The notes under the pieces were generated by a model. That model was not told where the DNA came from. It was given only the letters and a program-made list of their open reading frames with translations, and did not search any database. Shown here one piece after another: positions 535 to 24,154 of a stretch of 36,301 bases of DNA (position 1 is its first letter; every line of letters begins with the position of its first letter). Made by a program: the position numbers and the translations under genes. Origin of the DNA: a virus; IMG/VR virus record IMGVR_UViG_3300037231_000155, positions 1 to 36,301 of that record. The stretch is one strand, 5' to 3'.

Positions 535-999
535 TTATTGTGTTGATTCGTTGATTTGATCGAAGGAATAAAGTTGATTCAAGGTCTCTTTGCGTTTTCC
601 GCAGCCACAATCTTTGCCGAAGATTTTGCGATGCCATTCTTTGAACTTGTCGCCACCAATGGGGCCAATTAATCGTTCAACCATGTCGCCTAATCCGGCA
701 TCAGACGGCTTGCGGCCTGCACCGACCAATAAACGCAGCACCATCGGCCATTGATCATAGGGAATTGCCTTAGCTTTGATTACAGCGTCGTCATGTCCGC
801 GCACCGTGATATTGACGGCTGGCCGCGTGATCTTTTCGTCGGTCAGATAAACCAGCTCGTTCGGACAGCGCGAAATGATCGGCTGAGCCATGCGATCCTC
901 TACGGTCAAAGTATCGCCAGCCAAGTTCCCCAGCGGAATGAGATCGTGCCAGATATGGTCACACCCAGCGGCCATAATTGATGCAATTGAAATCTTCAT
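535..999 (-). CDS. Late-operon protein with CGCG-KR C-terminal motif
   Basis: A protein of 154 residues when started at the ATG at 999. That start overlaps the stop of the fibre gene as ATGA, the usual coupling in this operon; a longer frame upstream would be a read through the neighbouring gene. The centre has a soluble mixed alpha/beta look. The C-terminus carries Cys-Gly-Cys-Gly-Lys-Arg-Lys followed by a conserved-looking Leu-Asn, a pattern I have seen at the end of small phage-encoded proteins of unknown role. Function unknown; the position suggests a tail-tip or fibre accessory protein. Confidence 0.7.
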   Translation of the reverse strand: MKISIASIMAAGCDHIWHDLIPLGNLAGDTLTVEDRMAQPIISRCPNELVYLTDEKITRPAVNITVRGHDDAVIKAKAIPYDQWPMVLRLLVGAGRKPSDAGLGDMVERLIGPIGGDKFKEWHRKIFGKDCGCGKRKETLNQLYSFDQINESTQ

Positions 1000-3152
1000 G
1001 GGTAAATGACCGGAAATGTTGCGCCCGGCAGAGAAAGAGTGACACCGGTTCCAGTTGCCCATCCAAGAGTTACACTCACCGTGTGGGTTCCCGCGCTGAT
1101 GCCAGCTCTTGGGACTTGAACTGCTACATCAAAAGTAGCAATTGATGAGAGGCTCGTATAATCAACGTGTGATGCGGCGGTCGTGCATGCAAACGAATCG
1201 CTTATGACGGATACCGCTCCAGAATCAACAGTCAACGTATCTATGATACAGGACTGCCCTGCGCCAATAGAAGAGCCACACGAAGGCGAGCCGGTTACAA
1301 AAAAAGTCAGGTTTTGAACCTGCGCCGCATTCATCGTCAATTTTATATTCTGCTGATAAACGGGCGTGCTTCCACAGTTGGTTGATATTATTCCGCCATC
1401 CAAGCTGAGCGTGATTATCGGGTAAAGTGGATATGTAAGCGTTCCAATTGTAACACCATTCCGGGCAATCGAGATCGTCGCCGTGATCAATCCGCTAGTT
1501 GGGTCAGCGGTGCCTGATATTGTAGCCGACGTGGTTGCCAGAGCTGACAAAGTCACCACGACAGGGGTTCCAGGCGAAGTGATTCCGCCTGATGCCTCGA
1601 GCGTGACAGTAACGTTGTCCCATTCCACATCACTCAGATTCAAAATCTGAAAATCAAAATTCCAATTGGTCCCAGAGATCAACCCGATTCCGCACCCCGC
1701 CGGGTCCGGACGAAGCATCCCAATCGTGAAAGGCTGCCAGATTAGTTGCATGGTTGGGTTTTTGGATTGATTCACCCAGTTTAAAATTGGCGCATCGCAA
1801 TTTGTGCCCCCACCATACTGGGTGCCATACCATCCTCTTGACGTTACAAATGCTGTCCCGATAAAACCCGCCACGTTTGTGAACCAGCCGGTATCCGTGC
1901 AGGCCAGCGCAGCCTCAGCGAGCGCGCCAGTGTTGTATAAGGTTGAGTTGCTTCCGAACGATGGCGGACCAGCCGGAACGCCCCAATTACCTCCAACATA
2001 ACCAGAACCTCCAGTTTCCGTCCATGCCCCCTGTAAACTTGGACAGAAAAGAGGGGTGAAATCAGGTGAACCTGTGGATGATAAAATAAATGACACTCCC
2101 GGATTTGTTCCGCATTGAGCACAAGCAGAGTTTATCGGCGGTCCGCCAACATATCCCGGGCAGCACTCTCCACCGGCAGCAAAAAAACTTCCGCCATTCG
2201 TCGCCCAATCCCATATCCCATCGGCACCGTCGGTGGTATCCGACATGAGGCCACTATCGCAATTGGTGCAAACGCAGGTCCAATCCGCGCCCGTCCCGGG
2301 CGTAACAACACTATTTGTATCAGTGACAGAGAACAATCCTGTTTCCGGCATGTCCGGGTAGGTGAAATTAAGCTCAGTCAACAAGATAAAATCACTGGTC
2401 GTGTAGCTGCTCGCTGGGTTCCACATCGTCGGCAGTGCTGGCAAATTGAAAATAATGCCGCTCCAACTTAAATATCCAGTGCCGCCAGAATTATTAAAAC
2501 TTGGATTGTATTGCTGATAAAAATACCCACCGCAATACCTTATTTTCCAGTTACCCGGATCGAGAGGAAACGAACCAAACGAATAGATCGCATCGCTGGT
2601 CACATCCGATATTGTAATTGTTCCCAGGCAAATCTCATTAATCCAGTCCGGCCCGCAACTGTTGCAGCCGCCAAGTGTGAATGGTAGATATGTCCCCCAC
2701 GTCAGATAAACATTCCCGGTATCACCGGAAGCCAGGCCGTCAATTTGAATGGAATAAACCGTGCCAGCCGTGGCAGCAAAGGCAACGCTTGCAAAGTTGC
2801 TCGCGGCGTATCCTTCGCCACTGCCCTGATCCAGCAAAAGCGTTACGCGCGTAAGCGATCCAACCGCCGATCCGGTGAATGCCTGGATCGCGCTCTTGAA
2901 GTTGGTTCGATTCGCCCCGGTCAAATCGCGTGTGGAAAAAAAGTAATCCCCATCAGTCGGGCATGTCCACGAATACCAGATGGTGGCGAATGGGCCAATG
3001 ATGGCGCGCGCAACCGGATAGACCGGAAAGAGGCTGTAATTATAATGCCCCGGCTCACCGCTCTGGTGAGTCGCGCCGGCATTCGAGCCCGTGATTGAAC
3101 CAGACGCGCCGCTGATGACGGAAGCCGCTGAGAAATTGTCATTGGCTGGCAT
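996..3152 (-). CDS. Large Cys-rich tail fibre or receptor-binding protein with a Verrucomicrobia-type domain
   Basis: A 718-residue, Gly/Ser/Thr-rich beta protein without a signal peptide. Residues about 1-155 match a domain I know from secreted Verrucomicrobiota proteins: an NDNF start, GASGS.TGSN.GAT..GEP, a WYSWT strand, AFTGS.V..LT, and a final TAGT.Y.I..DG. The middle (about 160-440) is rich in Cys and Trp, suggesting several disulfide- or metal-stabilised modules. The C-terminal third is repetitive beta structure, possibly Ig-like. It is the largest gene after the tape measure, in the adsorption region, so host recognition is the likely role. The link to adsorption is by position and composition. 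Confidence 0.65.
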   Translation of the reverse strand: MPANDNFSAASVISGASGSITGSNAGATHQSGEPGHYNYSLFPVYPVARAIIGPFATIWYSWTCPTDGDYFFSTRDLTGANRTNFKSAIQAFTGSAVGSLTRVTLLLDQGSGEGYAASNFASVAFAATAGTVYSIQIDGLASGDTGNVYLTWGTYLPFTLGGCNSCGPDWINEICLGTITISDVTSDAIYSFGSFPLDPGNWKIRYCGGYFYQQYNPSFNNSGGTGYLSWSGIIFNLPALPTMWNPASSYTTSDFILLTELNFTYPDMPETGLFSVTDTNSVVTPGTGADWTCVCTNCDSGLMSDTTDGADGIWDWATNGGSFFAAGGECCPGYVGGPPINSACAQCGTNPGVSFILSSTGSPDFTPLFCPSLQGAWTETGGSGYVGGNWGVPAGPPSFGSNSTLYNTGALAEAALACTDTGWFTNVAGFIGTAFVTSRGWYGTQYGGGTNCDAPILNWVNQSKNPTMQLIWQPFTIGMLRPDPAGCGIGLISGTNWNFDFQILNLSDVEWDNVTVTLEASGGITSPGTPVVVTLSALATTSATISGTADPTSGLITATISIARNGVTIGTLTYPLYPIITLSLDGGIISTNCGSTPVYQQNIKLTMNAAQVQNLTFFVTGSPSCGSSIGAGQSCIIDTLTVDSGAVSVISDSFACTTAASHVDYTSLSSIATFDVAVQVPRAGISAGTHTVSVTLGWATGTGVTLSLPGATFPVIYP

Positions 3153-3154
3153 GA

Positions 3155-4108
3155 TTAAAAAGTTCCAGTGCTATTGACGTAAATGGCCGTTCCACCGCCG
3201 CTACCGCATGTATTTGCCTGAATCAATCCCGCCGCAATCGGCCACCAATAAACGGTGCCGGAAGTCGGCACCGGGATTTGAGGAATCTGGTTTCCGGTTG
3301 GACTTGCTGGCGTGCTTAATCCGTTGATTAGCATGTAAGTTCCCGGCAACACTGTGATGCCAGAAAGCGTGAATTGCGCCGCCACTCCCACTACGTCGCC
3401 ATTGGAATACGCCGTGCCGCCAGTGGTATCATACATGGTCAATTGACCACCCCCGCCGCCCCCACCCGCCGTCAGATCATTCCGCACAAGCTGCCGGATG
3501 TGTGCCCAATACGTCGCCGAATCCGTTGATGTATCCACCCAGCCGATCGGAATGTGATTTGCGTCCGGCGTGGGAAACGCCGTCCAACCGAGCGTTACGG
3601 GATCGCCGCCATTGCCGCTCACCGTCATGCCAGGGTAGCCGAAATTGATCACCGGCGCGGTGGGAACCGTGGCATCAATCCAGAAATAAATCTGCGTCTG
3701 ACCCGAATCCAGGGCGTATTCGTACCCGCTGAAATCAGTTCCGGATTCCGAAGGAAACATTTGCGCGTCCGGACCGCCAGGCACATAGTTTGTTGTGCCG
3801 GGCGCGGCAGCATCAACGCCGTCCGTCCCGGTCACTGCCACGCCCTGGTAAAAGCCACCGTGGATCCTGAATTTCAACCAGTCACTCGTGATGGCCGGCG
3901 TCGCCCGCGACGAGCTGGGGAATGAATAAATTTTGAACGGATAAAAAAGGTCTGATGAATCATCGAGCGCGAGATCGCGCGCGCCGGATGATGCCAGCGC
4001 GCGGCTGTCCAGATTCTCCTTGCGCGTGAAGTCCGCTCCCGTCGCCACACTGTTAACCGTGTTCCATTGGCGATTGAGGCTCTGCCCGGATTTAAGCGGT
4101 GGCAACAT
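3155..4108 (-). CDS. Putative tail-tip or baseplate structural protein
   Basis: A 317-residue protein if it starts at the ATG at 4108, directly after the upstream stop. The frame stays open to 4153, but that part is an out-of-frame read of the neighbour, so I prefer the short form. Residues about 60-180 look like a beta-sandwich, followed by a glycine run (GGGGGGG, about 218-224) that separates a second beta-rich C-terminal module of about 90 residues. This linker layout is typical of multi-domain virion fibres. I recognise no family. Confidence 0.6.
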   Translation of the reverse strand: MLPPLKSGQSLNRQWNTVNSVATGADFTRKENLDSRALASSGARDLALDDSSDLFYPFKIYSFPSSSRATPAITSDWLKFRIHGGFYQGVAVTGTDGVDAAAPGTTNYVPGGPDAQMFPSESGTDFSGYEYALDSGQTQIYFWIDATVPTAPVINFGYPGMTVSGNGGDPVTLGWTAFPTPDANHIPIGWVDTSTDSATYWAHIRQLVRNDLTAGGGGGGGQLTMYDTTGGTAYSNGDVVGVAAQFTLSGITVLPGTYMLINGLSTPASPTGNQIPQIPVPTSGTVYWWPIAAGLIQANTCGSGGGTAIYVNSTGTF

Positions 4109-7815: not shown

Positions 7816-8265
7816 TTAGACCGTGATGTTCGGGCGGTAGGTGAGTGAATAGTTGATCATCATCTCCTTTTTCTTGGTGAGCGTTATCTCCGGAGGCGCG
7901 GCTACCAGGACCGTGTAAGTCACCACGCCACTGGCATACGAGGCGCTCCCACCATTGGCGGCGGCAGGTTCACCGAACGGGATGGCATTCGCACTAGCGC
8001 CAGCGAATGGAATCGCCAGCCCCATGTTGCTGCCTTCAATTGGCCAGGATTTGGAAGCGTCATACATCGCGCTCGTTTTTGCATTGAAGCCATCGCGCAA
8101 CATTACTTGAAAGGCTCCGAGGCCGCTATTGTCCTCGATCTCGATCGGCTCGCCGTTTTTGGCCGTGAGCGCGATGGATTCGATGATCGCACCGTTGGGA
8201 GTATTTGCCACGCCGCCGGTGCCCCAGACGATCGTGCCATTCCCGTTGATTTTGACTAATGACAT
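7816..8265 (-). CDS. Probable major tail tube protein
   Basis: A 149-residue beta-rich protein lying directly upstream of the chaperone pair, the usual place of the tail tube subunit. It begins with short strands (KINGNGTIVWG), has a mid-section EPIEIEDNSGLGAFQVMLRDGF resembling tube-protein strand-helix packing, and ends with ITLTKKKEMMINYSLTYRP. No signal peptide. About 150 residues is typical for a non-contractile tail tube. No sheath gene precedes it, which argues against a Mu-like contractile tail. Assigned from position and fold expectation only. Confidence 0.55.
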   Translation of the reverse strand: MSLVKINGNGTIVWGTGGVANTPNGAIIESIALTAKNGEPIEIEDNSGLGAFQVMLRDGFNAKTSAMYDASKSWPIEGSNMGLAIPFAGASANAIPFGEPAAANGGSASYASGVVTYTVLVAAPPEITLTKKKEMMINYSLTYRPNITV

Positions 8266-8290: not shown

Positions 8291-8644
8291 TTAATCCCCC
8301 AAATTCGTCACCAAATTTTCCGCCCGATAAAACATCGTCGCGTTTGTGAATTCATCCGTGGCCGCGCCCGACAACGCCACCGGTTCAATCCAGAACTGCA
8401 CATACGGCCCGGTGACGATTGGGCTATGCAAAATCGCCGTGCAAACATTGGGGATATTAAGAGTCGCCGGGCAATTGCTCCAAGTTACTGTGCAAACATT
8501 CCAGGCGACGTTCGTTGTTGGCGCAGCTATTAAAGAACTTTTAACGACTGACCCTGGTGGCAGCGGCGGCAGCGGCACCAACGCCCCCCCCACGACATGA
8601 GTGGACAGCAAAATTAAAACAAACAATGACGCGGTGGGTTTCAT
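8291..8644 (-). CDS. Small secreted protein in the tail operon
   Basis: A 117-residue protein with a clear N-terminal signal sequence (SLFVLILLSTHVVGGA, residues about 5-20), then a proline-rich linker (PLPPLPPGS) and a beta-rich domain with three cysteines that could pair after export. The start overlaps the stop of the 607-residue secreted protein as ATGA, so the two are coupled. It is the third consecutive signal-peptide gene inserted between tail-completion and tail-tube genes. No family recognised. It may form a surface complex with its two upstream neighbours. Confidence 0.6.
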   Translation of the reverse strand: MKPTASLFVLILLSTHVVGGALVPLPPLPPGSVVKSSLIAAPTTNVAWNVCTVTWSNCPATLNIPNVCTAILHSPIVTGPYVQFWIEPVALSGAATDEFTNATMFYRAENLVTNLGD

Positions 8645-10464
8645 TTCTTTGACATATAAATGCTTTGCGCATACTTCGATTGGTCGCCAGAGTAAACCCG
8701 CACGAATGCGATTGAACCATTCAGCGGATTAGAATCGCCAATATACCCACCAAGCGACCAAGGAAATGAACCATAATTGCCAGCAAGTCCTTCGCTTGTA
8801 TTAGGGCCAGTGGTGGGGTTATTCATCCCATCCAGATAGCAGGTTACTGATGGAATGGAACTAGAATTGTCAAATACGTAAACAATATTGTGCCAGTTAT
8901 TTATTGCTCCAATGTTGTCAAAAAACACATAAAATTGGTTATAGTCAGTCCACACAGAACCAGAAATCTCTCCATACCAAAAGTCTCCCTCGCCTATCAC
9001 GTTTCCGTTGCCGGCGGGACCACTTGAGAAGTATATTTCTGGAGCGCCACTTGAAGCAACAGATGGCTGGTTGACCCAAACGCTAACCGTTATTTTGTTA
9101 GTGCCAACCGCCCAAGCGAGCAAGTTTGTGGCAATCGCGTGGGTCGTATCACCTTCCAAAGCATCGGTCATTCCATCCGGGCCAGTTACCCAAGTTGCAC
9201 CAGTTCCCAAAGTCGCATTGTGTCCCCCAACAGTGTCCGTCAGTGTTCCTCCACTTCCACTTCCAACCCAATATGCCAAGTCGGGTGTTGGAGGTGAATA
9301 GGGAGCAACAACGGTAACACTAGCGTTTGTAAAAACCGATTTCACTTCCATCGCATTTGCATTTACTCGGTAAGTATAGGTGACACCATTTGTCACTGTA
9401 TTATCGGTATAGGAAAATGCCGTGTTTGTATTATAACTGGCCGCTGCTGGCTCAACATTGGTTGCCAATGCTATCCATGTCGTCCCACCATTCGTTGATC
9501 GGTCAATTTCGCTTCGTATGCCGTTTTGATTCCACGTCAGGTTGACCTGATTTGTCCATACCTCATAAACAGCCAATGAATTTGGAGCTGGAACAGAGAA
9601 CATCCAGCTTGGAACTGTGGCATTGTTTGAAATGCTTATCGAGACGGGACCTAAATAGTTCGAGCCGCCGGTATAATTCAAATACGATTGCAGCCACAAG
9701 TTTTCAAGCAGATTATTAACTGTGCTAGGCGCTTGTGCCGAACCAATCAAATTCCAATTCTGGTCAAATACAGCAATCTCACTTTCTCCGTTTACATTAT
9801 AGTTTGGGTCACCCTTAAGCAGCACATTGTAATTGCTGGTGGTAGTTGTGGCAATCACCCCGCTATAAGTAGAAACTGAATTCGTTTGTCCGTGAGTCTG
9901 AAAACCCGCCAGGGTTCCGCTGTAGAATTGCGCATCAACCCAGCCGCCATTAAACGATGCCCAAACCAGGTCCTGCTGAGCAATGGTGGCAAGCGCCCTT
10001 GTGCGAAAGTAAATTAGCACGGGTGTGTTGGAAATAATGCCGTTGAAATTGCATTGCAACGACTCCCAATAAGTTGAGGACGGTAGTTTGTTCGTGAACA
10101 GTAGGCAGGAATTGCTTGACCCGTAAATGACGCTGCCGTTATACAAAAGTGGTAATGAATATCCAAGATTTGTATTTGATAGGAAAGTGCTCTGGCTGAG
10201 TGTGCTAGAGCCATCAACGATAATGTTCCATGAGGTTGTGCCAAATGTGGTATCGGACATCGTGGCCGAATTAAGCGCCCCGGTTGTTACCAGTGTTCCT
10301 GGCGTCACGTTGTTTAGATTCAGCATGAAATCAATCGGCAGGGCGTTGACGGTGGAAGATGGTGGAATAGTTTCACCAAGCCAAAGATTTTGACCAATAT
10401 AAAGTTGTGCCCCCGCCAGCAACGGCAGCAACACAAAGAAGATTATAATCGTCTTAATGCGCAT
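8641..10464 (-). CDS. Secreted FN3 and LamG-like surface protein
   Basis: A 607-residue protein starting at the ATG at 10464. The frame is open to 10533, but the extra residues overlap the previous gene, while the internal start gives a textbook signal peptide (MRIKTIIIFFVLLPLLAGAQ). Residues about 291-388 resemble a fibronectin type III domain (VNLTWNQN.., YTDNTVTNGVTYTYRV). Residues about 398-600 resemble a LamG/concanavalin-type fold (ISVWVNQPS-like strand, WHNIVYVFDN, CYLDGMNN, IGGYIGDSNPLNGSIAFVRVYSG). Such proteins bind glycans at the cell surface. It overlaps the upstream gene by 11 bases. Export of a gene product from a tail operon is unusual; cell-surface display or a fibre acquired after export are both possible. 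Confidence 0.7.
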   Translation of the reverse strand: MRIKTIIIFFVLLPLLAGAQLYIGQNLWLGETIPPSSTVNALPIDFMLNLNNVTPGTLVTTGALNSATMSDTTFGTTSWNIIVDGSSTLSQSTFLSNTNLGYSLPLLYNGSVIYGSSNSCLLFTNKLPSSTYWESLQCNFNGIISNTPVLIYFRTRALATIAQQDLVWASFNGGWVDAQFYSGTLAGFQTHGQTNSVSTYSGVIATTTTSNYNVLLKGDPNYNVNGESEIAVFDQNWNLIGSAQAPSTVNNLLENLWLQSYLNYTGGSNYLGPVSISISNNATVPSWMFSVPAPNSLAVYEVWTNQVNLTWNQNGIRSEIDRSTNGGTTWIALATNVEPAAASYNTNTAFSYTDNTVTNGVTYTYRVNANAMEVKSVFTNASVTVVAPYSPPTPDLAYWVGSGSGGTLTDTVGGHNATLGTGATWVTGPDGMTDALEGDTTHAIATNLLAWAVGTNKITVSVWVNQPSVASSGAPEIYFSSGPAGNGNVIGEGDFWYGEISGSVWTDYNQFYVFFDNIGAINNWHNIVYVFDNSSSIPSVTCYLDGMNNPTTGPNTSEGLAGNYGSFPWSLGGYIGDSNPLNGSIAFVRVYSGDQSKYAQSIYMSKK

Positions 10465-11713
10465 AACCGTTAGTTGAGACAAAAGGAATAAAAATATTTG
10501 TGCCTCCAATGCTGTAATTCGTGCCATTGACAATCACGGGCATATACAACATCAACGTGCTATTCGTCGGCGCATAAACCGGCGTGCCAAGAGCAAAAGC
10601 TTGAAGGTTGGTCAGCTCGGAGCCGTTTCCGAAAAAAAAAGCTGCTTTATTCGTCCCGCTGATTGTTTCGTTGCCATTGGTGAGGTCACTCCAGCCATGT
10701 CCGTAACCATTGGTCGTGGTAAAATCACCGTTCATCCATTGCATATAATCGTCGCCCCGATTATTGTTTTCGCCGACAAAAAACGGTGAATGGGGCGCCG
10801 CGTTCGTATCCATTATGAAGTCAAAATCTTCGTGACAATAGATCCCCTGCGTTTCCGAACCCAAGACGACGGTGTATCGCTGCTGATTTTCAGAATAAAT
10901 GATGAAATTATTTAATCCGAGGTCATCCCCAGTATCATTCAGATCAAAATAATAACCGACGCCCGGCCCGTTCAAGTCCGAGAACTGTGAATTGGTGATG
11001 GCCGAAAATGAACCATTGCCCCTAAAAAGATTTGCGGTGTTCGTCAGATTCACTGCGGTTGACTGATTGTTTGTCAGAGCCGCCGCAATGACGAGTGACT
11101 GCGGGCCGGTGACTGTAACTGCTGAAGTTGCACTCGTTGCCGTCGCCGCGCTCCCCATCGTGTTGTTGGTCAGGGTGCCGGTGAGGTTCACCTGATTGCT
11201 GCCGCCAACCGTCATCCAAGCAGTGTTTTGGCCGGGGTAGAAATTGACGTTGGTGGCGTTTCCACCACTTCCCAGTCGGGCATATCGCAGATCGCTCGTG
11301 TAGGTATCGTAGGAAACCTGGCCGGATGGCAATGTATTCCCGGCATCAGCCGTGCCTTCATATTGCGCATAAACCGTGCCGTTGGTAACGGGCATTTGAA
11401 AAGTGAACGTCGCGTAATTGTCATCCACTGGCGCCAGTTGCCAATTGCCAGGCGAACAATTTGTCAGCGTAATCACTCCATTAGTCCCGCTCCATGCCGT
11501 GCCACGCCATTGCACCGCCGTGCCGCCATTCTGCGATTGTGGCGCCGAGGTGAAGGTCAATATACATTTCTCATTGGTGATGGCATTGCCAAAGCCATCG
11601 AGCAATGTGATGACCATATTCCCCGCCAATGCCCCGGGCGCGAACAAAGTAAAAAGAAAACCAAAGAGCAACCAGCACCGCGTAAATCGTAAATCGTAAA
11701 TCGTAAATTTCAT
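10454..11713 (-). CDS. Secreted fibre-like protein starting within a heptanucleotide repeat
   Basis: A 419-residue protein with an N-terminal signal (CWLLFGFLFTLFAPGALAG, residues about 13-31). Codons 2-11 are encoded by the (ATTTACG)4 array, giving FTIYDLRFT. A small beta domain follows (30-110), then a Thr/Asn/Ser-rich repetitive region with a collar-like YDTYTSDLRYARLG segment typical of phage tail fibres, and a C-terminal aromatic-rich domain. The start overlaps the gp37-like gene as ATGA. The mix of tail-fibre style sequence and export signal is odd. A one-unit change in the 7-bp array would shift the frame, so expression could be phase-variable. Confidence 0.65.
   Translation of the reverse strand: MKFTIYDLRFTRCWLLFGFLFTLFAPGALAGNMVITLLDGFGNAITNEKCILTFTSAPQSQNGGTAVQWRGTAWSGTNGVITLTNCSPGNWQLAPVDDNYATFTFQMPVTNGTVYAQYEGTADAGNTLPSGQVSYDTYTSDLRYARLGSGGNATNVNFYPGQNTAWMTVGGSNQVNLTGTLTNNTMGSAATATSATSAVTVTGPQSLVIAAALTNNQSTAVNLTNTANLFRGNGSFSAITNSQFSDLNGPGVGYYFDLNDTGDDLGLNNFIIYSENQQRYTVVLGSETQGIYCHEDFDFIMDTNAAPHSPFFVGENNNRGDDYMQWMNGDFTTTNGYGHGWSDLTNGNETISGTNKAAFFFGNGSELTNLQAFALGTPVYAPTNSTLMLYMPVIVNGTNYSIGGTNIFIPFVSTNGYAH
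11681..11708. repeat. Heptanucleotide array (CGTAAAT)4
   Basis: Four perfect 7-bp units on the plus strand, reading ATTTACG on the coding minus strand. The array encodes residues 2-11 of the secreted protein that starts at 11713 and lies next to the 3' end of the gp37-like gene. A similar four-unit array in the opposite orientation lies at 12606-12633. Seven is not a multiple of three, so unit gain or loss would switch the downstream frame. Confidence 0.8.
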
Positions 11714-12186
11714 GCTTCCTCCCCGTCGTCATTATCGGCTGCGACCACGATCTCGATCCGATAGGCATCCATCGTGATTCCTTCAAACGTCAAAAGTTCC
11801 GTGCCCTTGTAATAAGGCCGTGATTCACCATTGGCATCAAACCGGCAGCGCCGGACCGCGGTACCTGCCTCGGCAATCAGATCAAACATTGGCTTGCCAC
11901 CAGCGATGCCGGCGACCAGGGATTTCCCCGCGTAAGATTCGAGCGAATACCCGCGCGAAACGGCGATCCAATATTTCCGATCCACCCGGCTCGTCACATC
12001 GCTGTTTTCTTCATCCCGCGGAACTTCACTTACAAACAGGATCCCGGCGCGCGGAGCGCCCGGCGTTTCACCCAAAAGCTTGAACAAATGCGGAACGTCA
12101 TGCGCAAAGTGGACGGATCCTTTATTGAGCTTTGCCCAATTGCCCATGCCAGCCTGAATCTTTTCGATGTCTTCACGAATCGTCAT
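11710..12186 (-). CDS. Mu gp37-like tail completion protein (DUF1834-like)
   Basis: A 158-residue protein immediately downstream of the DUF1320 gene and overlapping it as ATGA, the same order as Mu gp36-gp37. Members of this group act at the head-tail interface or as tail terminators. The protein starts with a helix (IREDIEKIQAGMGNW), has a central strand-rich section with P..GILFVSEVPRDEE, and ends in a strand pair (ITMDAYRIEIVVAADND) that fits the terminator fold. The assignment rests mostly on gene order plus the fold-like pattern. Confidence 0.55.
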   Translation of the reverse strand: MTIREDIEKIQAGMGNWAKLNKGSVHFAHDVPHLFKLLGETPGAPRAGILFVSEVPRDEENSDVTSRVDRKYWIAVSRGYSLESYAGKSLVAGIAGGKPMFDLIAEAGTAVRRCRFDANGESRPYYKGTELLTFEGITMDAYRIEIVVAADNDDGEEA

Positions 12187-12599
12187 AACGAGGATCCTTG
12201 CAATGCACTGGGCCGCTGCGCGACTGCGCCAGGCGTGAACGCCGGGCGCTCAGTCGCGTCCAGACTTTCCTTGCGGTCCGAGATCGCTTTCAACCGTTCG
12301 CGCATTTCATTCGCGCGCGAAAGATAGGGATTCTTTTCGTCCGGAGCCTGCTTGCGCCGGTCATAAAGTTTCTCCATCACAAACACCAGCGCAGCTTCCG
12401 CCACGATCGCGGGCACTGGATTAAATGGTGTCACATAACGCCCCTGCAAATAGCCATCCACCGTCTGCGAGCACTTCTCGATGATCCGGCAAAGGCGCGG
12501 GACATCAATGTCGCCCGTGCCATCGTCGTCCAAGGCTTCAATCAAGCGGCGTTTGCCACCCATTTCGTCCTGAACAAGTTCCTGTGAGGTGTAGCCCAT
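12183..12599 (-). CDS. Mu gp36-like protein (DUF1320 family)
   Basis: A 138-residue head-completion or connector protein. The diagnostic pattern is present: an N-terminal Y.S..EL, then a helix with VDGYLQGRYVTPF.PVPAIVAEAALVFVMEKLYDRR, followed by NPYLSRANEMRERLKAIS, which is how DUF1320 proteins read. It is followed by the gp37-like gene. Its 5' leader consists almost entirely of the degenerate ATTTACG-type array (12606-12633), so no normal ribosome-binding site is visible. Confidence 0.8.
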   Translation of the reverse strand: MGYTSQELVQDEMGGKRRLIEALDDDGTGDIDVPRLCRIIEKCSQTVDGYLQGRYVTPFNPVPAIVAEAALVFVMEKLYDRRKQAPDEKNPYLSRANEMRERLKAISDRKESLDATERPAFTPGAVAQRPSALQGSSL

Positions 12600-12605
12600 T
12601 TTTTT

Positions 12606-12633
12606 ATTTACGATTTGCGATCTACGATTTACG
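12606..12633. repeat. Degenerate heptanucleotide array (ATTTACG-type, 4 units)
   Basis: Four 7-bp units on the plus strand: ATTTACG, ATTTGCG, ATCTACG, ATTTACG. It is inverted relative to the array at 11681-11708, so the pair flanks the gp36-gp37 genes. It supplies the TAA stop of the glycosyltransferase (12629-12631) and forms the leader of the DUF1320 gene. Confidence 0.7.
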
Positions 12634-13360
12634 CGCCCGCGGCCGTTGCCACCTGGTTAAAGGGGTTGCCAGCCTGTAGAGCCAATGGCCATTCAGCCCG
12701 GCCCGCGTGCCGCAAGACAACTTCGGTATCAGCAAACACTTTGCCGCCCATCAAATTCCAGCGTTCGCAGAAAAACCAGTCCTCGGTCAGCCAACGGTTA
12801 TTCGCCAAAGACTCGCGCCAGAATGCAAACTCACGGCGATGCGGGGGGAAATCAGATTGATAGCAAATCTCCTGGCCTTCATGCGCCAACATGGATTCAA
12901 ACACTTCGCGCTGGATGCACATGAAACCAGTTCCGATATAGCGCACCTGATGCAAGCCATCCTCGCGGACCTTGGTATCCGGCAAACCATTCAGGCACCA
13001 TTGCACCTCGGCGGTGTCGCGCTTGAGCGGATAGAGTCCGCCAACCACCGGTTCATCGTGACTGCATATCCGCGCCACGTCGTCCGGGTTGAAGCCGATG
13101 TCTGAATCAATGAAGAGCAAATGCGTGCAATCCGTCTCCAGAAAATTCGCGGTCAGAATATTCCGCGCCCGGTTGACGCTCGGATCCACTGACCAGCCGA
13201 TCTGGATGGAAATCTTCGGCTGGAACACCATCCGGCAAAGCGCCTGGACGAAGCTCAAATCATAATTCGCGTAATGGCCCGAGATCCCGATATAAATCTT
13301 GCGGACTTTTTTCTCCGGCGCAACTTCGCGAGCCATCCAATCAGGTATGGGAGTTTTCAT
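12629..13360 (-). CDS. GT-A type glycosyltransferase in the morphogenesis operon
   Basis: A 243-residue enzyme. The N-terminal part reads IYIGISGHYANYDL, followed by VNRARNILTANFLETDCTH and the metal- and sugar-nucleotide-binding DxD motif in LLFIDSDIGF (about residues 84-86). Downstream are PVVGGLYPLK, GTGFMCIQREVF and LTEDWFFCERW, where the ED resembles the late acidic motif of GT-A enzymes. It should transfer a sugar from an activated donor; donor and acceptor are unknown. Sitting between decoration and connector genes, it might glycosylate virion proteins, or modify the host envelope. It has no signal peptide. The stop codon lies in the heptanucleotide array, so the 3' end may have been remodelled. 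Confidence 0.8.
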   Translation of the reverse strand: MKTPIPDWMAREVAPEKKVRKIYIGISGHYANYDLSFVQALCRMVFQPKISIQIGWSVDPSVNRARNILTANFLETDCTHLLFIDSDIGFNPDDVARICSHDEPVVGGLYPLKRDTAEVQWCLNGLPDTKVREDGLHQVRYIGTGFMCIQREVFESMLAHEGQEICYQSDFPPHRREFAFWRESLANNRWLTEDWFFCERWNLMGGKVFADTEVVLRHAGRAEWPLALQAGNPFNQVATAAGA

Positions 13361-13504: not shown

Positions 13505-13924
13505 TTACTCGTTCATCCAGTCAATGGTGACAAGCACCGGATTGCCATTCGGATCGAGAACGTTGTTGCCGGCGCCCACCACGATCGCGACGCCGATCGG
13601 ACCGCGCAGGCCGGGATAAAGCGGAACATCCACATAGGCCGCGACCGCGCCGGTATTGGCCACGCCCGGGAACGATGCCTGGATCAGCGGATTGGTCTGC
13701 TGAAACGTTGCGCCGCCATCGCCGGAATCTGTAAGAGAAACCGTGATGCTATTGGCCGCATTGGTGAAGTTTGGCAGGTTCGCGTTTAACGCAACGCGCA
13801 GCCGGCCTTGCCGCCAGTTGTCACTGAATGCATTCGTGTCAACATTCAGATCCATCGGCGAGAGATTGACGGTCCCGCCGCCATTCGGCAGGTAACCTTC
13901 GAGGTGTAAAACAGCATCTTTCAT
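13505..13924 (-). CDS. Small beta-rich protein next to the capsid gene, possible decoration protein
   Basis: A 139-residue protein rich in Asn, Gly, Val and Ala with alternating strand-like segments (RLRVALNANLPNF, ITVSLTDSGD, AAYVDVPLYPGLRGPIGVAIVV). No signal peptide and no cysteine. It follows the capsid gene after one short exported protein and precedes a hairpin. Capsid decoration proteins have this size and composition, but I recognise no family, so the role is inferred from position. Confidence 0.55.
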   Translation of the reverse strand: MKDAVLHLEGYLPNGGGTVNLSPMDLNVDTNAFSDNWRQGRLRVALNANLPNFTNAANSITVSLTDSGDGGATFQQTNPLIQASFPGVANTGAVAAYVDVPLYPGLRGPIGVAIVVGAGNNVLDPNGNPVLVTIDWMNE

Positions 13925-13986: not shown

Positions 13987-14412
13987 TTAGTGACCGACAG
14001 CAATCCAGTAAAGCGTCACGCTGACCGCACTCGTCTGGAAAACCACGTTGCTGGTAGTCACACTATTAATCGCCACCTGGCAATTGGTGATGCTGGCATT
14101 GGCAGTCACGAAAGGCGGCTGGCTATAAATATTCGTGCCAAAGGTATTCGTAACCAGCACAGTCGAGACCGGCCCGGCGGTTCCAGCCAGAATCCCATCA
14201 GCATATTGATGCGCCAAAGTCTGCGATGGAAACAGCGGCGTGCCGTAATTCTGGTTGTATTGAGCGGCGCCATATAACTGAGTATTGCCAGCGGCGCCAT
14301 TGTTGGTGAAATATTGCTGAGCCATCGCGTGGCGAGCCATGAAGGCAATCGCCAGCGCGGTGATCAACAAAAGGATTGTCACCAGGTAGAGTTTTTTTAA
14401 AGAGGTTTTCAT
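13987..14412 (-). CDS. Exported small protein between capsid and decoration genes
   Basis: A 141-residue protein starting at the ATG at 14412; a TTG at 14427 would add five residues. It has a strong export signal: basic residues, then YLVTILLLITALAIAF and a plausible cleavage site AMA|QQ near residue 32. The mature part is Asn/Gln/Tyr-rich at first, then beta-rich with one cysteine. A signal peptide on a gene directly behind the major capsid gene is unexpected. It may be a lysogen or late-infection surface protein riding on the abundant capsid transcript. Confidence 0.6.
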   Translation of the reverse strand: MKTSLKKLYLVTILLLITALAIAFMARHAMAQQYFTNNGAAGNTQLYGAAQYNQNYGTPLFPSQTLAHQYADGILAGTAGPVSTVLVTNTFGTNIYSQPPFVTANASITNCQVAINSVTTSNVVFQTSAVSVTLYWIAVGH

Positions 14413-14464: not shown

Positions 14465-15439
14465 TTAGAACGCAGCTTGCAACTGAATGCCGTCCGTGAC
14501 ATAGATCGGCACGCCTTGAATATCCACCGTTGGAATCGGCGCGATCGTCGCCTGATCCGGCTTCACGCCAGCCTGGCCAAACAGTGTGACCGTGCGCGTC
14601 TGTTGCAGTGTTGCCCGGGCGCGTTTCGTGGCGAAGCAATGCGTCGGCACGATACCTGCCGGCATCAAAGCGTGAAGCTGAGCACTCAATTTGTCCGACC
14701 ACGGATTCGCCGCATTCACATTCTTGATGCACATGACACCCCAGGGATGAGCGCACGCCAGACCGATGAATCCGGAAATATTGCTGACCATGGCGCGATA
14801 GCGGGCATTTGAGCCCCCGAGGTATTGCCATTGCCAGGGATTCACATCGAGGGTTTTATTGCCGCCGAATAAAAATTGAACCGCCTGCGGATGCACCCAG
14901 ACATACCAGATACATTCCGTTGCCGGGCCCGCGCCGCCGGCGTTGACTACATTAACGATCGGTTGCCCGGTACGGGAATCCTTGACCTTGGAATAGATGT
15001 TCAAAAGGTCAATCAGCCCAGGGAAGCCATTGGCATTCAAACCAAGCCCGGCATAAAACTGCTGACTGAATTTAATCGCCTTGTCTTGCAGCGCGCCGGC
15101 AACTTCATCCGCCTGGAGATCGCCCAGGGAATCACCTTGCTGCTCAGCGCCGATCAATTCTGATTCGCGGATTTCCAATTGCGAATCGAAAAAGAAGGCA
15201 TTGAACCGCCGTTTTTCATAACTGCCAGCCGAGACCGAGACACTGCCATTGTTTCCCGGGAAAGCGCCGCCTTCAGGAATGGCAATTTGGATTTTAGCCT
15301 CAGTAAATGTGCCTGGGATGGTTCGCCCGGCAACTGTGGTGATTTCTGGCGCGTAGTTGATAATCTGCTGTACCAAGCCGATCTCTTTGTCATTGCCGCG
15401 ACGAGCGGCCAGGTCCATCAAAGTAAGAATTTGTTTCAT
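14465..15439 (-). CDS. Major capsid protein
   Basis: A 324-residue protein placed after the protease/scaffold gene, as Mu gpT is. The N-terminal helix (LTLMDLAARRG) is followed by ...EIGLVQQIINYAPEIT, a region rich in capsid-like long beta strands, an EKRRFNAFFFDSQLEI segment, a helical spine (QADEVAGALQDKAIKFSQQFYAGLG), and an A-domain-like C-terminal half ending in strands (IPTVDIQGVPIYVTDGIQL). These features fit the HK97 fold. Exact family membership cannot be confirmed by eye; the position is the strongest argument. It would assemble around the scaffold product encoded upstream. Confidence 0.7.
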   Translation of the reverse strand: MKQILTLMDLAARRGNDKEIGLVQQIINYAPEITTVAGRTIPGTFTEAKIQIAIPEGGAFPGNNGSVSVSAGSYEKRRFNAFFFDSQLEIRESELIGAEQQGDSLGDLQADEVAGALQDKAIKFSQQFYAGLGLNANGFPGLIDLLNIYSKVKDSRTGQPIVNVVNAGGAGPATECIWYVWVHPQAVQFLFGGNKTLDVNPWQWQYLGGSNARYRAMVSNISGFIGLACAHPWGVMCIKNVNAANPWSDKLSAQLHALMPAGIVPTHCFATKRARATLQQTRTVTLFGQAGVKPDQATIAPIPTVDIQGVPIYVTDGIQLQAAF

Positions 15440-15478: not shown

Positions 15479-16126
15479 TTAGATGGCTGGGGCCGCGAGG
15501 CTATGACCGGCACGCTTGTTCTCGTCGTTAAAGACAGCCGAGAGGTCCACCACTTCCTTGCCGGTGGAATCCTTCACGCGATAATTCGTTTTCGTTTCAG
15601 TGGCATGACCCGCATTGCGTGCCGAGAGCGCAACCGTGACCGGCGTATTCGCAGAGAGCAATTGGAGCAAACTAACGTCGAGCGTCTTCAATTCATCGGC
15701 AGTGTAAGCCGTGCCATCCGCTTTCTTCGGCACCTTGCCATCGGCGGCAAACGACTTGACCAATTTGCTGCGCTCGGTTTCCGTCAACGCCAGTTCGCCA
15801 GCTTTGACTTTGGTTTCCAGCGCATCGAGGCGATCCAGCGTCTTCACCAAATCCTCGGCGCTGAAAGTGAGAACCTTGCCGCCGATCGTGGCCGACAGCG
15901 TGGCGATCTGTTTGGTCGCCGCATCCTCCATCTTTTTCAGGCGGTCCGGCAAATCGCCCAGGACGGCGGCAAAAGATTTGATCTTGCCATCTTCAATGGT
16001 GATCGCGGCTGAAAGCAGCGACAACAAACCGAGTCGTTGCATTAACGCTTCAGGGGTGGCATCAGCCTTCAGGCCGATCGCGGTGGCGAGTTGCTCGCCT
16101 GTAATTGGATCTTTGAGAGATTTCAT
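15479..16126 (-). CDS. Possible nested scaffold protein (Mu Z-like), internal start
   Basis: In frame with the protease, the ATG at 16126 begins MKSLKDPITGEQLA, a fresh-looking N-terminus right after a low-complexity Asn/Gln linker (TNQNQ). It would give 215 residues covering only the helical scaffold part. Mu and lambda both make their scaffold from an internal start of the protease gene. I see no strong ribosome-binding sequence before this ATG, so it stays a proposal. Confidence 0.35.
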   Translation of the reverse strand: MKSLKDPITGEQLATAIGLKADATPEALMQRLGLLSLLSAAITIEDGKIKSFAAVLGDLPDRLKKMEDAATKQIATLSATIGGKVLTFSAEDLVKTLDRLDALETKVKAGELALTETERSKLVKSFAADGKVPKKADGTAYTADELKTLDVSLLQLLSANTPVTVALSARNAGHATETKTNYRVKDSTGKEVVDLSAVFNDENKRAGHSLAAPAI

Positions 16127-16621
16127 TATTGTTTGGTTTTGGTTGGTTGCAGAAAAAAATTGAAGGCCGGTAACTTTGCCATTGGGAGTCAGCGCCACGG
16201 AATGAATCATCGTCACTTCCCGATTGTCATCCTTCAGCGCCGGCGAGATGTCCTCGAAGTTGCGGGCATGTTGAACACCGAGCGGAGTCCAGGTGATTTC
16301 CTCCAGCCAGATGCCGTCGCCGGGAATCGGATTCACGCGGCCATAACCGAAGATCAGCGGCGGCTGGCCCGCCCTCATCAGCTCCTTGTGCGTGTCATTT
16401 CCAGGCACCGTGCAATGATCGAAATCAATCGCCACCCGCTCGAAGCCGAATTTCTTCTGGTTCGCGGAAAGTGACGCGGCGGTTTTGTCGCCGGCGCGAT
16501 AAGCTCCATCCGTCGTTTCATTGTCGCCCCAGCCAAAAACTTTCAGGCGCGTCGGCAGGGATTCACCCTGCAACGCGCGGTTGGAAATTTTGAAAGTTTT
16601 TATCTCGGCGACATCTAACAC
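15479..16621 (-). CDS. Mu I-like prohead protease with C-terminal scaffold region
   Basis: A 380-residue protein with a GTG start at 16621 and no nearby ATG. The first ~165 residues read like the Mu I-type protease: FGWGDNETTDGAYR, VAIDFDHCTVPG, WLEEITWTPLGVQHARNFEDISPAL, and MIHSVALTPNGKVTGL, where the HS..LTP box is characteristic. After residue 165 the sequence becomes helical and charged like a scaffold (DRLKKMEDAATKQIATLS...LETKVKAGELALTETERSK). In Mu the scaffold Z is made from an internal start in the I gene; an ATG at 16126 could serve that purpose here. The enzyme would mature the prohead and remove scaffold. Confidence 0.75.
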   Translation of the reverse strand: MLDVAEIKTFKISNRALQGESLPTRLKVFGWGDNETTDGAYRAGDKTAASLSANQKKFGFERVAIDFDHCTVPGNDTHKELMRAGQPPLIFGYGRVNPIPGDGIWLEEITWTPLGVQHARNFEDISPALKDDNREVTMIHSVALTPNGKVTGLQFFSATNQNQTIMKSLKDPITGEQLATAIGLKADATPEALMQRLGLLSLLSAAITIEDGKIKSFAAVLGDLPDRLKKMEDAATKQIATLSATIGGKVLTFSAEDLVKTLDRLDALETKVKAGELALTETERSKLVKSFAADGKVPKKADGTAYTADELKTLDVSLLQLLSANTPVTVALSARNAGHATETKTNYRVKDSTGKEVVDLSAVFNDENKRAGHSLAAPAI

Positions 16622-16678
16622 GCCAAGACTTTATCGTGAGACAATCCTTTTTACTACGTAGCCACTACGCGGTTTTAC

Positions 16679-16708
16679 ATGGGAGGGACGGCGTGTCGCC
16701 GTCCCCAT
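16679..16708. repeat. GGGACGGCG palindrome, copy 1 (intergenic)
   Basis: Arms GGGACGGCG and CGCCGTCCC with a TGT loop, framed by ATGGGA and CAT. It abuts the stop of the virion morphogenesis gene (16709) and fills part of the 87-base gap before the protease gene. Copies lie at 19858-19888 and 29412-29440. In mRNA it would fold into a stable hairpin. Confidence 0.75.
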
Positions 16709-17149
16709 TCACTTTATTTCGCTATCCAACATTCGCTGGCCGGCCGCCGCAATTTTCTCCTCGGCCTTCGGCGTCAGTTTGCCATCAAGCACCGGGAAGA
16801 ATGGCCGCGCTGGAATCGGCGATCCGCGCCCTTCCGTGCGACCGAACTGATGCGTTGCCGCGTAGATCGTGGGATTGGAAACCGTCGCGCGCTGGTCCGT
16901 GACTTCGAGATGAAAACTCCGCGAGAGCGTGCCGGACTTTTGCAGTTTGCTCGGCGTGCCATCCTTTTTATTCACCCACGGCTTGGGCCGATACTCCGCG
17001 CCGACATCATTGAAGTTGCCCATCGTGATGGACATGAAGGTTGTGCCCATCGCCCGCAAAACGCGGATTGGATTCCTTGCCGTTGCCGCCATCTTGGCGA
17101 GCTTCGGCGAAATATCATTGCGCGTCAGTTTGAAACCAAATCCAGCCAT
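16709..17149 (-). CDS. Phage virion morphogenesis protein (Mu gpG-like)
   Basis: A 146-residue protein matching the Mu G-type morphogenesis family in order and pattern: an N-terminal NDISPKLAKMAATARNPIRVLRAMGTTFMSI, a middle with YRPKPWVNKKDGTPSKLQKSGTLSRSF, then VSNPTIYAATHQFGRTEGR and a C-terminal IPARPFFPVLDGKLT. The ...YA..HQFG....IPARPF motif is the family signature. It is needed for tail/head joining or tail assembly. It lies between the F-like gene and the protease, as in Mu. Confidence 0.85.
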   Translation of the reverse strand: MAGFGFKLTRNDISPKLAKMAATARNPIRVLRAMGTTFMSITMGNFNDVGAEYRPKPWVNKKDGTPSKLQKSGTLSRSFHLEVTDQRATVSNPTIYAATHQFGRTEGRGSPIPARPFFPVLDGKLTPKAEEKIAAAGQRMLDSEIK

Positions 17150-17253
17150 TGATTGACAATGTAAAGGTGAAGGCTTACAATGTCCATGATGCTATTGGAG
17201 TCGGTGACGGCGTTGAAGGTAGCAGCCGTGGCGGCGGTCACCCAAAGACACGG

Positions 17254-18117
17254 TTATTCTCCCTGCTGATAAATCAGCTTTCCTGTTTGGAACTTTTTTA
17301 ATTCCTGCTCAGCCAACCAATCCCAAACGCTGACGCCCGTTGCGAGCATTTGTTTTTGAGCATTTTTCTGAAACTCGCTCCAAACCTCCGGATCATATTT
17401 CGCCTCCAGATCCTTCAGCGGAATTTTCAAATCACCAGGATTCCATTTGAACCCGGAATTATCCGGGCCGTCAATCGTGATGTCATGCCGCTGACCATCG
17501 CGAATAATCGTGCCATGATTCAATTGCTTCAGCGCCGCGCCCTCGATCACATTCCGGTCCTCGGGATTTTTACCCTCATCCTTTGCGCGTTCATCAGCCA
17601 CGAAATCCGGATTCATTGGCCGCTTATAACAAACGCAGCCGAGATGCCCCCACGGGCCGGTATGCGTTTCCCAGAAAGGATCATCCTTCGGAACAATGAT
17701 TCCATTCAGCGCCAGGTGCGACGGCGTCGGCACCTGGCATTCCCCGTGGAGATATTGAAAGGCAACCGTGTCATCATCCGCCATACCGGCGTTATGGACC
17801 GTCGCACTGAAAGCCTGAAATGAGTTTACCCGCAGGACCAGCTCCGCCCGATAATCCGCACCATCGCCCAGATAAGGATCCAGCTCGTCCACGATCTGCT
17901 GTTTCGCTTCGTCCCAGGTCTGATCACCCATCGGCACCGCGGTCACTGCATCGCGGATCCGCTGCAACGCATTCGCGCTCTCGATGCCGGCGACCGTGAA
18001 AGCGCGGGCCTTGATCTCCGGCAGCAACTGATTAAACACCCGCTTCACCAAAACCGGTTTCCCGGAAATGATGTCCGCCGCTTCCTTGTTCGGCTTCGGT
18101 GAAAAATCAGAATCCAT
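17254..18117 (-). CDS. Mu F-like minor head protein
   Basis: A 287-residue protein of the phage Mu F/SPP1 gp7 head morphogenesis family, which joins the portal inside the head. The typical motif occurs at about residues 125-170: ...QYLHGECQVPTPSHLALNGIIVPKDDPFWETHTGPWGHLGCVCYKRP, where H.ALNG and H..C.C are the family marks. It sits between the portal and the morphogenesis gene as in Mu. The 104-base gap downstream (17150-17253) has an open reading extension in the same frame past the TAA but no convincing start. Confidence 0.85.
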   Translation of the reverse strand: MDSDFSPKPNKEAADIISGKPVLVKRVFNQLLPEIKARAFTVAGIESANALQRIRDAVTAVPMGDQTWDEAKQQIVDELDPYLGDGADYRAELVLRVNSFQAFSATVHNAGMADDDTVAFQYLHGECQVPTPSHLALNGIIVPKDDPFWETHTGPWGHLGCVCYKRPMNPDFVADERAKDEGKNPEDRNVIEGAALKQLNHGTIIRDGQRHDITIDGPDNSGFKWNPGDLKIPLKDLEAKYDPEVWSEFQKNAQKQMLATGVSVWDWLAEQELKKFQTGKLIYQQGE

Positions 18118-22785: not shown

Positions 22786-22983
22786 TTATTTAGCAGGTGG
22801 ATTGAACCAAAGTTTCTTGGCGATCATCCAAACGCCGCCATGGCTGATGACATATTCCGAAAGCTTGTACAAATCCGCGCGAACCCAAAGTGCCGCCGCC
22901 GCGATCGCGGGCCAATTGAATGAGGTCTGGACCGCATTCACGGCTTGAGCGGCCTGATAAACCGTATTGGTGTCAATATTCAT
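22786..22983 (-). CDS. Small amphipathic protein, possible lysis or packaging accessory
   Basis: A 65-residue protein with one moderately hydrophobic helix (FNWPAIAAAALWVRADLY, residues about 24-41) and another near the C-terminus (GGVWMIAKKLWF). It starts in an ATGA overlap with the DUF2730-like gene, so it is a genuine operon member. It could be a small holin-like or membrane-associated protein, but the helix is broken by charged residues. I cannot assign a function. Confidence 0.5.
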   Translation of the reverse strand: MNIDTNTVYQAAQAVNAVQTSFNWPAIAAAALWVRADLYKLSEYVISHGGVWMIAKKLWFNPPAK

Positions 22984-23378
22984 TGGTTGATGCCTTCGAG
23001 CTTCCCAATGATCTTTCCGAGCTGGAGCGAAATCACCTGGAACTTTTCCGTAATGTCCGCCCGGATCGCCATGTCCTCAGTCCGCAATCTTTCAATTTCC
23101 AAATCATGCGCATTTAACCGACGCTCAATTTCTACATGGCGTTGGTTTTCAAAATCCCAATTGAACCGCTTTGGCGCCTTCGCGACTTCAAACGGTTGCG
23201 GACCAACCTCGGTACGGACCGATTTTTTCGCCTGATGCTTGGCGAGTAAATATTGGAGGCCCGTGAACAACGCGACCACAACCGCGCAAATCACGCCAAT
23301 GCCGACAATAAAAAGAATGACCAAATCTTTAATGAGTCCAGGTGGTAACTGCCCTATATCCGCATCAGCAAGCATCAT
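22980..23378 (-). CDS. Membrane-anchored coiled-coil protein (DUF2730-like, Mu gp25 position)
   Basis: A 132-residue protein with one N-terminal transmembrane helix (LVILFIVGIGVICAVVVALFTGL, about 18-40) and a long C-terminal coiled coil (about 75-130, with the pattern RHVEIERRLNAHDLEIERL). Mu gp25/DUF2730 proteins have this build and this place just before the terminase genes. The topology also suits an inner-membrane spanin, so a lysis role is possible. It is coupled to the lipase upstream (ATGA at 23375-23378) and to the 65-residue gene downstream. Confidence 0.65.
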   Translation of the reverse strand: MMLADADIGQLPPGLIKDLVILFIVGIGVICAVVVALFTGLQYLLAKHQAKKSVRTEVGPQPFEVAKAPKRFNWDFENQRHVEIERRLNAHDLEIERLRTEDMAIRADITEKFQVISLQLGKIIGKLEGINQ

Positions 23379-24154
23379 GATTTTGAAAGGGTGTTAATAT
23401 TGGAAATCAAACTCTGGTATCGGGAAATTGAATGCATCTGGACCACATCCCGCGGCAACGCCGCGATGCGGACGCGTCCCACGCGCCAGGCAATGAAGAT
23501 TGAAGCGCAATCCACCAGGAGCATGTGCGCGGTGGATCGGCCAATCTCAATCGTCGGAAAATTCAATCGCGCATCACAAGGCGGCTCAGTCAAATAAACT
23601 TCCGTGCCGACATGGCGATAGGGAAGCCACCAGCCCGGCAACGGCAAATGCGGAACCACATCATATTGCGCCACGACGCGAAATGTCCGGTCGCCCAGGA
23701 GCCGATTGTAATACGCTTCAAAATCCTTGTCCCCAAAACGCATCCCGGCAAATGTGATTACTCCGGCAATATTGATTCCAAGTTGTGCGAGCAGATAAGC
23801 CGCCGCCGGCGCGCAGCCGCCGCCAAAAGAATGACCCGTCAAATAAATTTCCTGATTCGGTGGCAGCTTTTTGCAAGCCGCAATGATCAGCGGCAAGACA
23901 CTTTCCACCGCTCGGAGCACGCCGGAATGCCAGCGACCTTCCTTTGCCGATAAATCGCTCGGCCATGATAAATAAATTTCCGCATCATCCAGCGCCATGC
24001 GAAAATCATCCGTGCCCCGAAACGCAATCGCGGTCCGCTGGCCATCTGTTTCGATCAATACATGCGTATCAACCAAACTGCTGATGGAAGCGGATTGGTA
24101 AGCCCGCGCCGAAACGCCAGCCAGCCAAACTGCCAATTCGGAATCAAAGTTCAT
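23375..24154 (-). CDS. Class 3 lipase, candidate lysis enzyme
   Basis: A 259-residue alpha/beta-hydrolase of the lipase class 3 family. The catalytic nucleophile is S109 in GHSFGGG. The strand before it reads TAIAFRGTDD, the usual oxyanion-side box of this family. Downstream are YDVVPHLPLPGWWLPYRHVGTEVYL, where D...P.LP supplies the acid and the RHVG box is typical. There is no signal peptide. It sits at the head of the late operon, before DUF2730 and terminase, where Mu carries its endolysin. It may hydrolyse membrane lipids to finish release. Substrate unknown; a lysogenic fitness role is an alternative. Confidence 0.8.
   Translation of the reverse strand: MNFDSELAVWLAGVSARAYQSASISSLVDTHVLIETDGQRTAIAFRGTDDFRMALDDAEIYLSWPSDLSAKEGRWHSGVLRAVESVLPLIIAACKKLPPNQEIYLTGHSFGGGCAPAAAYLLAQLGINIAGVITFAGMRFGDKDFEAYYNRLLGDRTFRVVAQYDVVPHLPLPGWWLPYRHVGTEVYLTEPPCDARLNFPTIEIGRSTAHMLLVDCASIFIAWRVGRVRIAALPRDVVQMHSISRYQSLISNINTLSKS

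Follow-up and report, generated by a model that had tools for sequence, protein, structure and literature searches.

Tailed phages are assumed to finish their particles in the cytoplasm, and export signals on fibre genes are hence unusual. Why would a phage carry three genes with such signals in the middle of its tail operon? The question is raised by genes of 419, 607 and 117 codons, flanked by the gp37-position and tail tube genes of a 36,301-bp IMG/VR virus record. This record was analysed in full and is called the window below. An earlier note had described these genes from the letters of the sequence, and we could confirm their coordinates and lengths on the minus strand. The overlaps are also as described there: 4 bp (ATGA) between the gp37-position and 419-codon genes, 11 bp between the 419- and 607-codon genes and 4 bp (ATGA) between the 607- and 117-codon genes.

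The minus strand of the window carries a Mu-like head-tail module. In brief, it encodes terminase-like, portal, protein F-like and protein G-like proteins, a Mu-like protease and the capsid protein, and continues with gp36, the gp37-position gene, the tail tube and the tape measure protein. The portal matches Portal_Mu (E 2.3e-41), gp36 has a match at E 2e-15, and the order of the module is the same as in Mu, B3 and D3112. On the Mu-type portal, protease and gp36 together with this gene order, we count the phage among the Mu-like phages. The place expected for a MuA-type transposase holds a 738-aa protein with no match in Pfam or in a tblastn search of phages, and an AAA ATPase (E 7e-5) adjoins it. 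The window and its relatives, described below, form a small family of uncultivated phages that probably infects Verrucomicrobia. We infer the host phylum only from a capsid match to an Akkermansia phage (26%), a fibre match to phage P8625 and the style of the proteins, since no prophage relatives were found in scans of genome contigs.

Signal peptides were predicted with a home-made rule set based on a charged n-region, an uncharged hydrophobic core and the -3/-1 rule. Applied to 11 known bacterial signal peptides as positive control, it recovered all 11; the lowest of their scores, 5.49, was used as cut-off. The export signals reported in the earlier note pass this rule set for all three products (7.33, 8.16 and 5.98 for the 419-, 607- and 117-codon genes). 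The block is thus real, but the set of signal-peptide genes reaches beyond the coordinates first given for it, into the neighborhood of the capsid gene, where a 141-aa protein absent from that note also scores above the cut-off. All four predicted leaders have the n-h-c layout with small residues at -3/-1. No gene reached 5.49 among 84 head-tail genes of Mu, B3, D3112 and Akkermansia phage Chantilly or among 25 genes of the isolated verrucophage P8625, for which the authors report no signal peptides using SignalP 4.0 (PMC4642752). The resulting counts, 0/109 control genes against 4/23 head-tail genes of the window, are descriptive, as related phages are non-independent samples and the rule set is our own. 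Chantilly was kept as a count control; we dropped it as an "empty site" control because pairwise comparison shows a recognisable relationship for its capsid protein alone.

Table 1. Head-tail features discussed in the text, with positions in the window (a slash marks the predicted cleavage site).
Feature	Position	Strand	Basis or comparison
Major capsid protein	14465..15439	-	
141-aa signal-peptide protein adjoining the major capsid gene (AMA/QQYFTN... ends ..YWIAVGH)	13987..14412	-	Same position in L003, L008, L016
139-aa decoration-like protein without signal peptide	13505..13924	-	L015 homologue has a signal peptide
Mu gp36-like head-tail adaptor	12183..12599	-	Profile matches
gp37-position protein	11710..12186	-	Gene order
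419-aa fibre-like protein	10454..11713	-	L003, L008, L015 and L016 have homologues here, with export-type leaders
Part of the 419-aa gene that codes for the signal peptide, contains (ATTTACG)4 at 11681-11708	11624..11713	-	
607-aa predicted exported protein, signal peptide 1-19 (AGA/QLY)	8641..10464	-	Rule set
117-aa predicted exported protein, signal peptide about 1-21	8291..8644	-	Rule set
Tail tube protein	7816..8265	-	Gene order; 63% identical to L003
718-aa protein without signal peptide, distal end of the tail module	996..3152	-	Contrast inside the same phage

Outside the head-tail module, a 173-aa signal-peptide protein ending in AGVRYSF, possibly a small outer-membrane barrel, is encoded at 24308-24829 in the lysis/early border region. 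Another signal-peptide protein, 232 aa long, contains a Sel1 repeat (E 2e-7) and is encoded at 25262-25960; contig L005 seemingly has a Sel1-like protein too. A class 3 lipase (E 1.5e-22; 23375-24154), possibly a lysis enzyme, adjoins a holin-like protein (22980-23378), and similar lipase-like proteins are present in L005 and L015. The window also contains two identical copies of a 27-bp palindromic, REP-like element, ATGGGAGGGACGGCGTGTCGCCGTCCC, at 16679-16705 and 29412-29438, and a long array of GGGATCAGGTCC-like 12-bp repeats at 35789-36292, near the right-hand end.

The tube, capsid and gp36 proteins of the window served as queries in scans of viral contigs. Four relatives, Mu-like by gene content, were compared: 3300028666_000070 (L003), 3300030020_000072 (L008), 3300020045_018668 (L015) and 3300025481_000001 (L016), all from IMG/VR. 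With the window they make up a set of five related phages known from sequence alone, and each relative has 2 to 3 genes with a predicted signal peptide. The earlier note had proposed to look for the block in related phages. A fibre-like gene directly follows the gp37-position gene in all five, with a spacing of 0-30 bp or an overlap in the relatives, which strongly supports exported-type proteins as a conserved block amid the genes of the tail operon. The three genes do not form a fixed set: the first alone occurs in all five phages, and the second and third vary. The L008 contig ends within the fibre gene, and the comparison of these two genes covers the window, L003, L015 and L016. In second position L016 encodes a FISUMP-domain protein in place of the 607-aa protein of the window, and L003 and L015 have no such gene. 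A small third gene is found in the window, L003 (107 aa) and L015 (105 aa). The L003 and L015 products are similar to each other (BLASTP about 4e-4), whereas the 117-aa protein of the window gave no significant BLASTP match and is their counterpart by position only. The L015 product looks like a lipoprotein precursor with an atypical lipobox. Homologous signal-peptide proteins (39% identity) are also encoded at different places in L005 (15535-16329), adjoining the transposition genes, and in L016 (13776-14186), in the tail operon.

The proteins of the block have almost no matches in Pfam, PHROGs, NCBIfam or PDB sequences, and a tblastn search of 50,697 phage records gave no hit for the 419- and 607-aa proteins or for the L003, L015 and L008 proteins. 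The FN3 and LamG-like parts suggested for the 607-aa protein are plausible by eye, but no sequence match in any of the four collections supports them. Its gene has a GC3 of 0.456, compared with about 0.59-0.69 in most neighbors, and looks recently acquired.

The 419-aa protein consists of a signal peptide (residues 1-30, ALA/GN), an N-terminal domain (mature residues about 1-86) and a variable C-terminal part that contains the fibre motif GNGSELTNL. Among the five fibres, identity averages 22% in the leader, 47% in mature residues 1-85 and 16% in residues 131-330, a pattern suggestive of a docking domain with an exchangeable binding part. The rule set places the cleavage sites of four fibres (ALA/GN, TLA/GN, VFA/GN and ASA/AD) in the same alignment column, and alignment places that of L016 at SLA/GN. 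The predicted cleavage abuts the conserved start of the mature protein, and the leaders ahead of it have diverged. The L016 leader has a long, repeat-rich n-region, scores 4.56, below the cut-off, and looks stretched by repeats. We considered a wrong-start artefact for the leader of the 419-aa protein and rejected it: a strong Shine-Dalgarno sequence, GGGGAGGAAGCATG, precedes the start codon, which puts the signal inside the gene.

The additional gene beside the capsid gene encodes a protein with a predicted signal peptide in the window, L003, L008 and L016 (4/4) and is absent in L015. Cleavage is predicted before QQYFTN, QQYYTN or QSYYTN, and the proteins end in GH. The best structural matches of the 141-aa protein, obtained with a low-confidence model (mean pLDDT 50.1), are the receptor-binding domain of the Pam1 tailspike, R-pyocin fibres and AP22 gp53 (Z 5.7-4.3). 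Against Pfam Gp53-like_C the L003 copy, and this copy only, gave E 0.35. The C-terminal domain thus weakly resembles tail-fibre knobs, and we regard these matches as leads rather than identifications. A reading as H-type lectin was also considered; agglutinins are among the structural matches (Z 3.7-4.1), ranking below the fibre knobs. The neighboring decoration-like protein has no leader in the window, nor in the relatives other than L015. Its L015 homologue (hhalign 98.4%, aligned from residue 26) matches phrog_427 from residue 26 (E 9.3e-9) and has its own putative leader ahead of the match; it should be noted that this gene has a GTG start and that the leader may be a wrong-start artefact. 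Based on its position beside the capsid gene, phrog_427 may be a decoration protein. Between the decoration-like gene and gp36, at 12629-13360, the window encodes a glycosyltransferase-like protein (phrog_1574). The L003, L008 and L016 proteins of this type are longer and seem to have a methyltransferase-like part at the N terminus; L015 has none.

The N-terminal segments could instead be hydrophobic anchors or assembly tags that stay uncleaved or are removed by a phage protease. The evidence for cleavage is prediction, and the L016 leader is atypical, both of which agree with this idea. We nevertheless find it improbable: two unrelated families both have AXA-type sites at a constant column, immediately ahead of the conserved start of the mature protein, and the leaders keep the n-h-c layout and their hydrophobicity while their sequence diverges. 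Alternatively, genes for host exoproteins may have been captured with their leaders and passively kept, with the leader having no function. The foreign composition of the 607-aa gene and the 7-bp arrays in the leader-coding parts of the 419-aa gene and of L016 genes fit such an origin. Passive retention is, however, very improbable, given that a leader is kept in 5/5 fibres and in 4/4 capsid-adjacent proteins despite divergence of the mature parts, and that the phrog_427 protein of L015 carries one ahead of its profile match.

The 7-bp arrays themselves are exact tandem repeats, of which shuffled sequence is expected to give none. In addition to the array in the 419-aa gene (Table 1), they occur at several places in L016 and L005. 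Of 10 places checked in L016, 4 lie in leader-coding segments, and the others, to the extent checked, avoid mature coding sequence; one of the arrays (3484-3504) spans the start of a gene. L005 has three AAATCGT arrays that stop 1-20 bp short of start codons. An array within a leader, as in the 419-aa protein, could shift the frame by slippage and so cause phase variation.

The earlier note saw a tail fibre in the 419-aa protein, a label that gains indirect support from the relatives and from the N-terminal fold. Structure comparison assigns the N-terminal domain to a transthyretin/CnaB-like fold (model pLDDT about 65 there), and the same domain of the L003 fibre matches PF13620 (E 2.7e-4). 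Models of the block proteins are otherwise of low confidence, with mean pLDDT values of 37.7 and, for the 141-aa protein, 50.1, and this domain alone is interpretable. Its structural matches are many pilin and enzyme domains of transthyretin-like fold, among them gp82N of cyanophage A-1(L) (VIA Z 7.4 over 81 residues, a score shared by many transthyretin-like domains). The top viral match is an SGNH hydrolase-type esterase protein of Pseudomonas phage LIT1 (C8ZKR7, E 1.1e-3). By eye, the L003 fibre contains an SGNH-like motif. The L016 fibre has HAEG-type repeats in common with the annotated tail fibre of P8625 (38.5% over 147 aa). The modules of the block so appear to be fibre modules, one of which the Verrucomicrobia phage P8625 uses without a leader. 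The leaderless P8625 fibre and the leaderless 718-aa protein of the window indicate that the leader is a feature of this lineage and of these genes, not of all verrucophage fibres.

We tentatively suggest, at slightly less than even confidence in the statement as a whole, that the block encodes fibre- and lectin-like appendages which are synthesised as Sec precursors, kept in the periplasm and attached to the virion at lysis. The steps that we infer, namely export, cleavage, docking, neck or head location, timing and host binding, would run as follows. Signal peptidase I would remove the leader and leave the mature proteins in the periplasm, where they would wait while heads and tails are assembled in the cytoplasm. 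Lysis would mix the two compartments, and the appendages would then dock on the particles with the conserved N-terminal domain and bind with the C-terminal part. The product of the gene after gp37 would form a neck fibre and that of the gene after the capsid gene a short head fibre. The gene position, the coupling within the late operon, the aligned cleavage sites, the conserved N-terminal domain with exchangeable, fibre-type C-terminal modules (HAEG, FISUMP, SGNH-like), the gp82N-like fold, the weakly knob-like capsid-adjacent protein and the L015 decoration-like protein with a leader all support virion appendages, and the leaders support export. Periplasmic storage is favored as it keeps both sets of features. 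The wider idea, that peripheral virion parts (neck and head fibre, and in one member a decoration-like protein) pass through the host Sec system and that particles are completed outside the cytoplasm at lysis, is a more doubtful proposition.

We know of no tailed phage shown to add periplasmic fibres to its particles, which counts against virion appendages. So do the lipoprotein-like third gene of L015, which favors a membrane location, the 718-aa tail-end protein, which could be the receptor-binding protein, and the low-confidence models, the common transthyretin-like fold and the low score of the L016 leader. Several of these points would suit exported non-virion proteins that are made late and act as lectins or adhesins in the periplasm, in the outer membrane or on the surface. 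Such proteins could mask or block receptors against re-adsorption to debris or to the dying cell, exclude competitors or make cells sticky. The export-type leaders, the possible lipoprotein, the lack of a leader on the tail-end protein of the same phage and the predicted exported proteins of 173 and 232 aa elsewhere in the window are all consistent with this, and lambda Lom provides an earlier example of a tail operon that encodes an exported protein which is no part of the virion (PMC12309495). The location between neck and tube genes with translational coupling to gp37, the docking-like conserved domain with exchangeable fibre-type modules and the leader of the L015 decoration-like protein speak against such proteins. 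We hold a role at the cell surface to be plausible, if on the doubtful side. Surface display and fibres built from exported subunits, both raised in the earlier note, are hence both retained, and sequence cannot separate them. For expression in lysogens, also suggested there, we see no support: the genes are closely packed within the late morphogenesis operon, and promoter-like sites were not in excess.

Conserved export-type leaders on fibre genes of a head-tail operon would point either to two-compartment assembly of appendages or to late surface display of fibre modules. The finding bears on phages of Verrucomicrobiota, of which very few isolates exist. We found no description of virion fibres with signal peptides in the literature searched, the coverage of which is incomplete. 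Mu, B3 and D3112 share the order protease, capsid, small protein, gp36, gp37 and tail tube with the window; they differ in having a short gene (about 60 aa) after gp37 and no signal peptides in their 68 head-tail genes. LIT1, which shares the N-terminal domain match and seemingly the SGNH-type motif of the L003 fibre, is another type of phage. Lambda Lom is likewise a signal-peptide protein encoded within a tail region, but it is an outer-membrane barrel rather than fibre-like, and its gene, found between those for the tail spike and the tail fibre, has another place than the neck-tube interval (PMC12309495). P8625 (NC_029047) has the tail fibre with HAEG-type repeats (15594-17498) and a ConA-like protein nearby; these genes follow the tape measure gene, and a signal peptide is reported in no protein (PMC4642752). 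The A-1(L) neck fibre, gp82-gp81-gp80 (PDB 8KEG), belongs to a myophage, has no detected sequence homology to the block, and signal peptides are not mentioned in the text describing it (PMC10966104). The likeness to the block lies in the arrangement of three genes in an operon, with a carbohydrate-binding module among them, and possibly in gp82N, a domain of pilin/transthyretin-like fold by which the fibre docks on the neck (PMC10966104).
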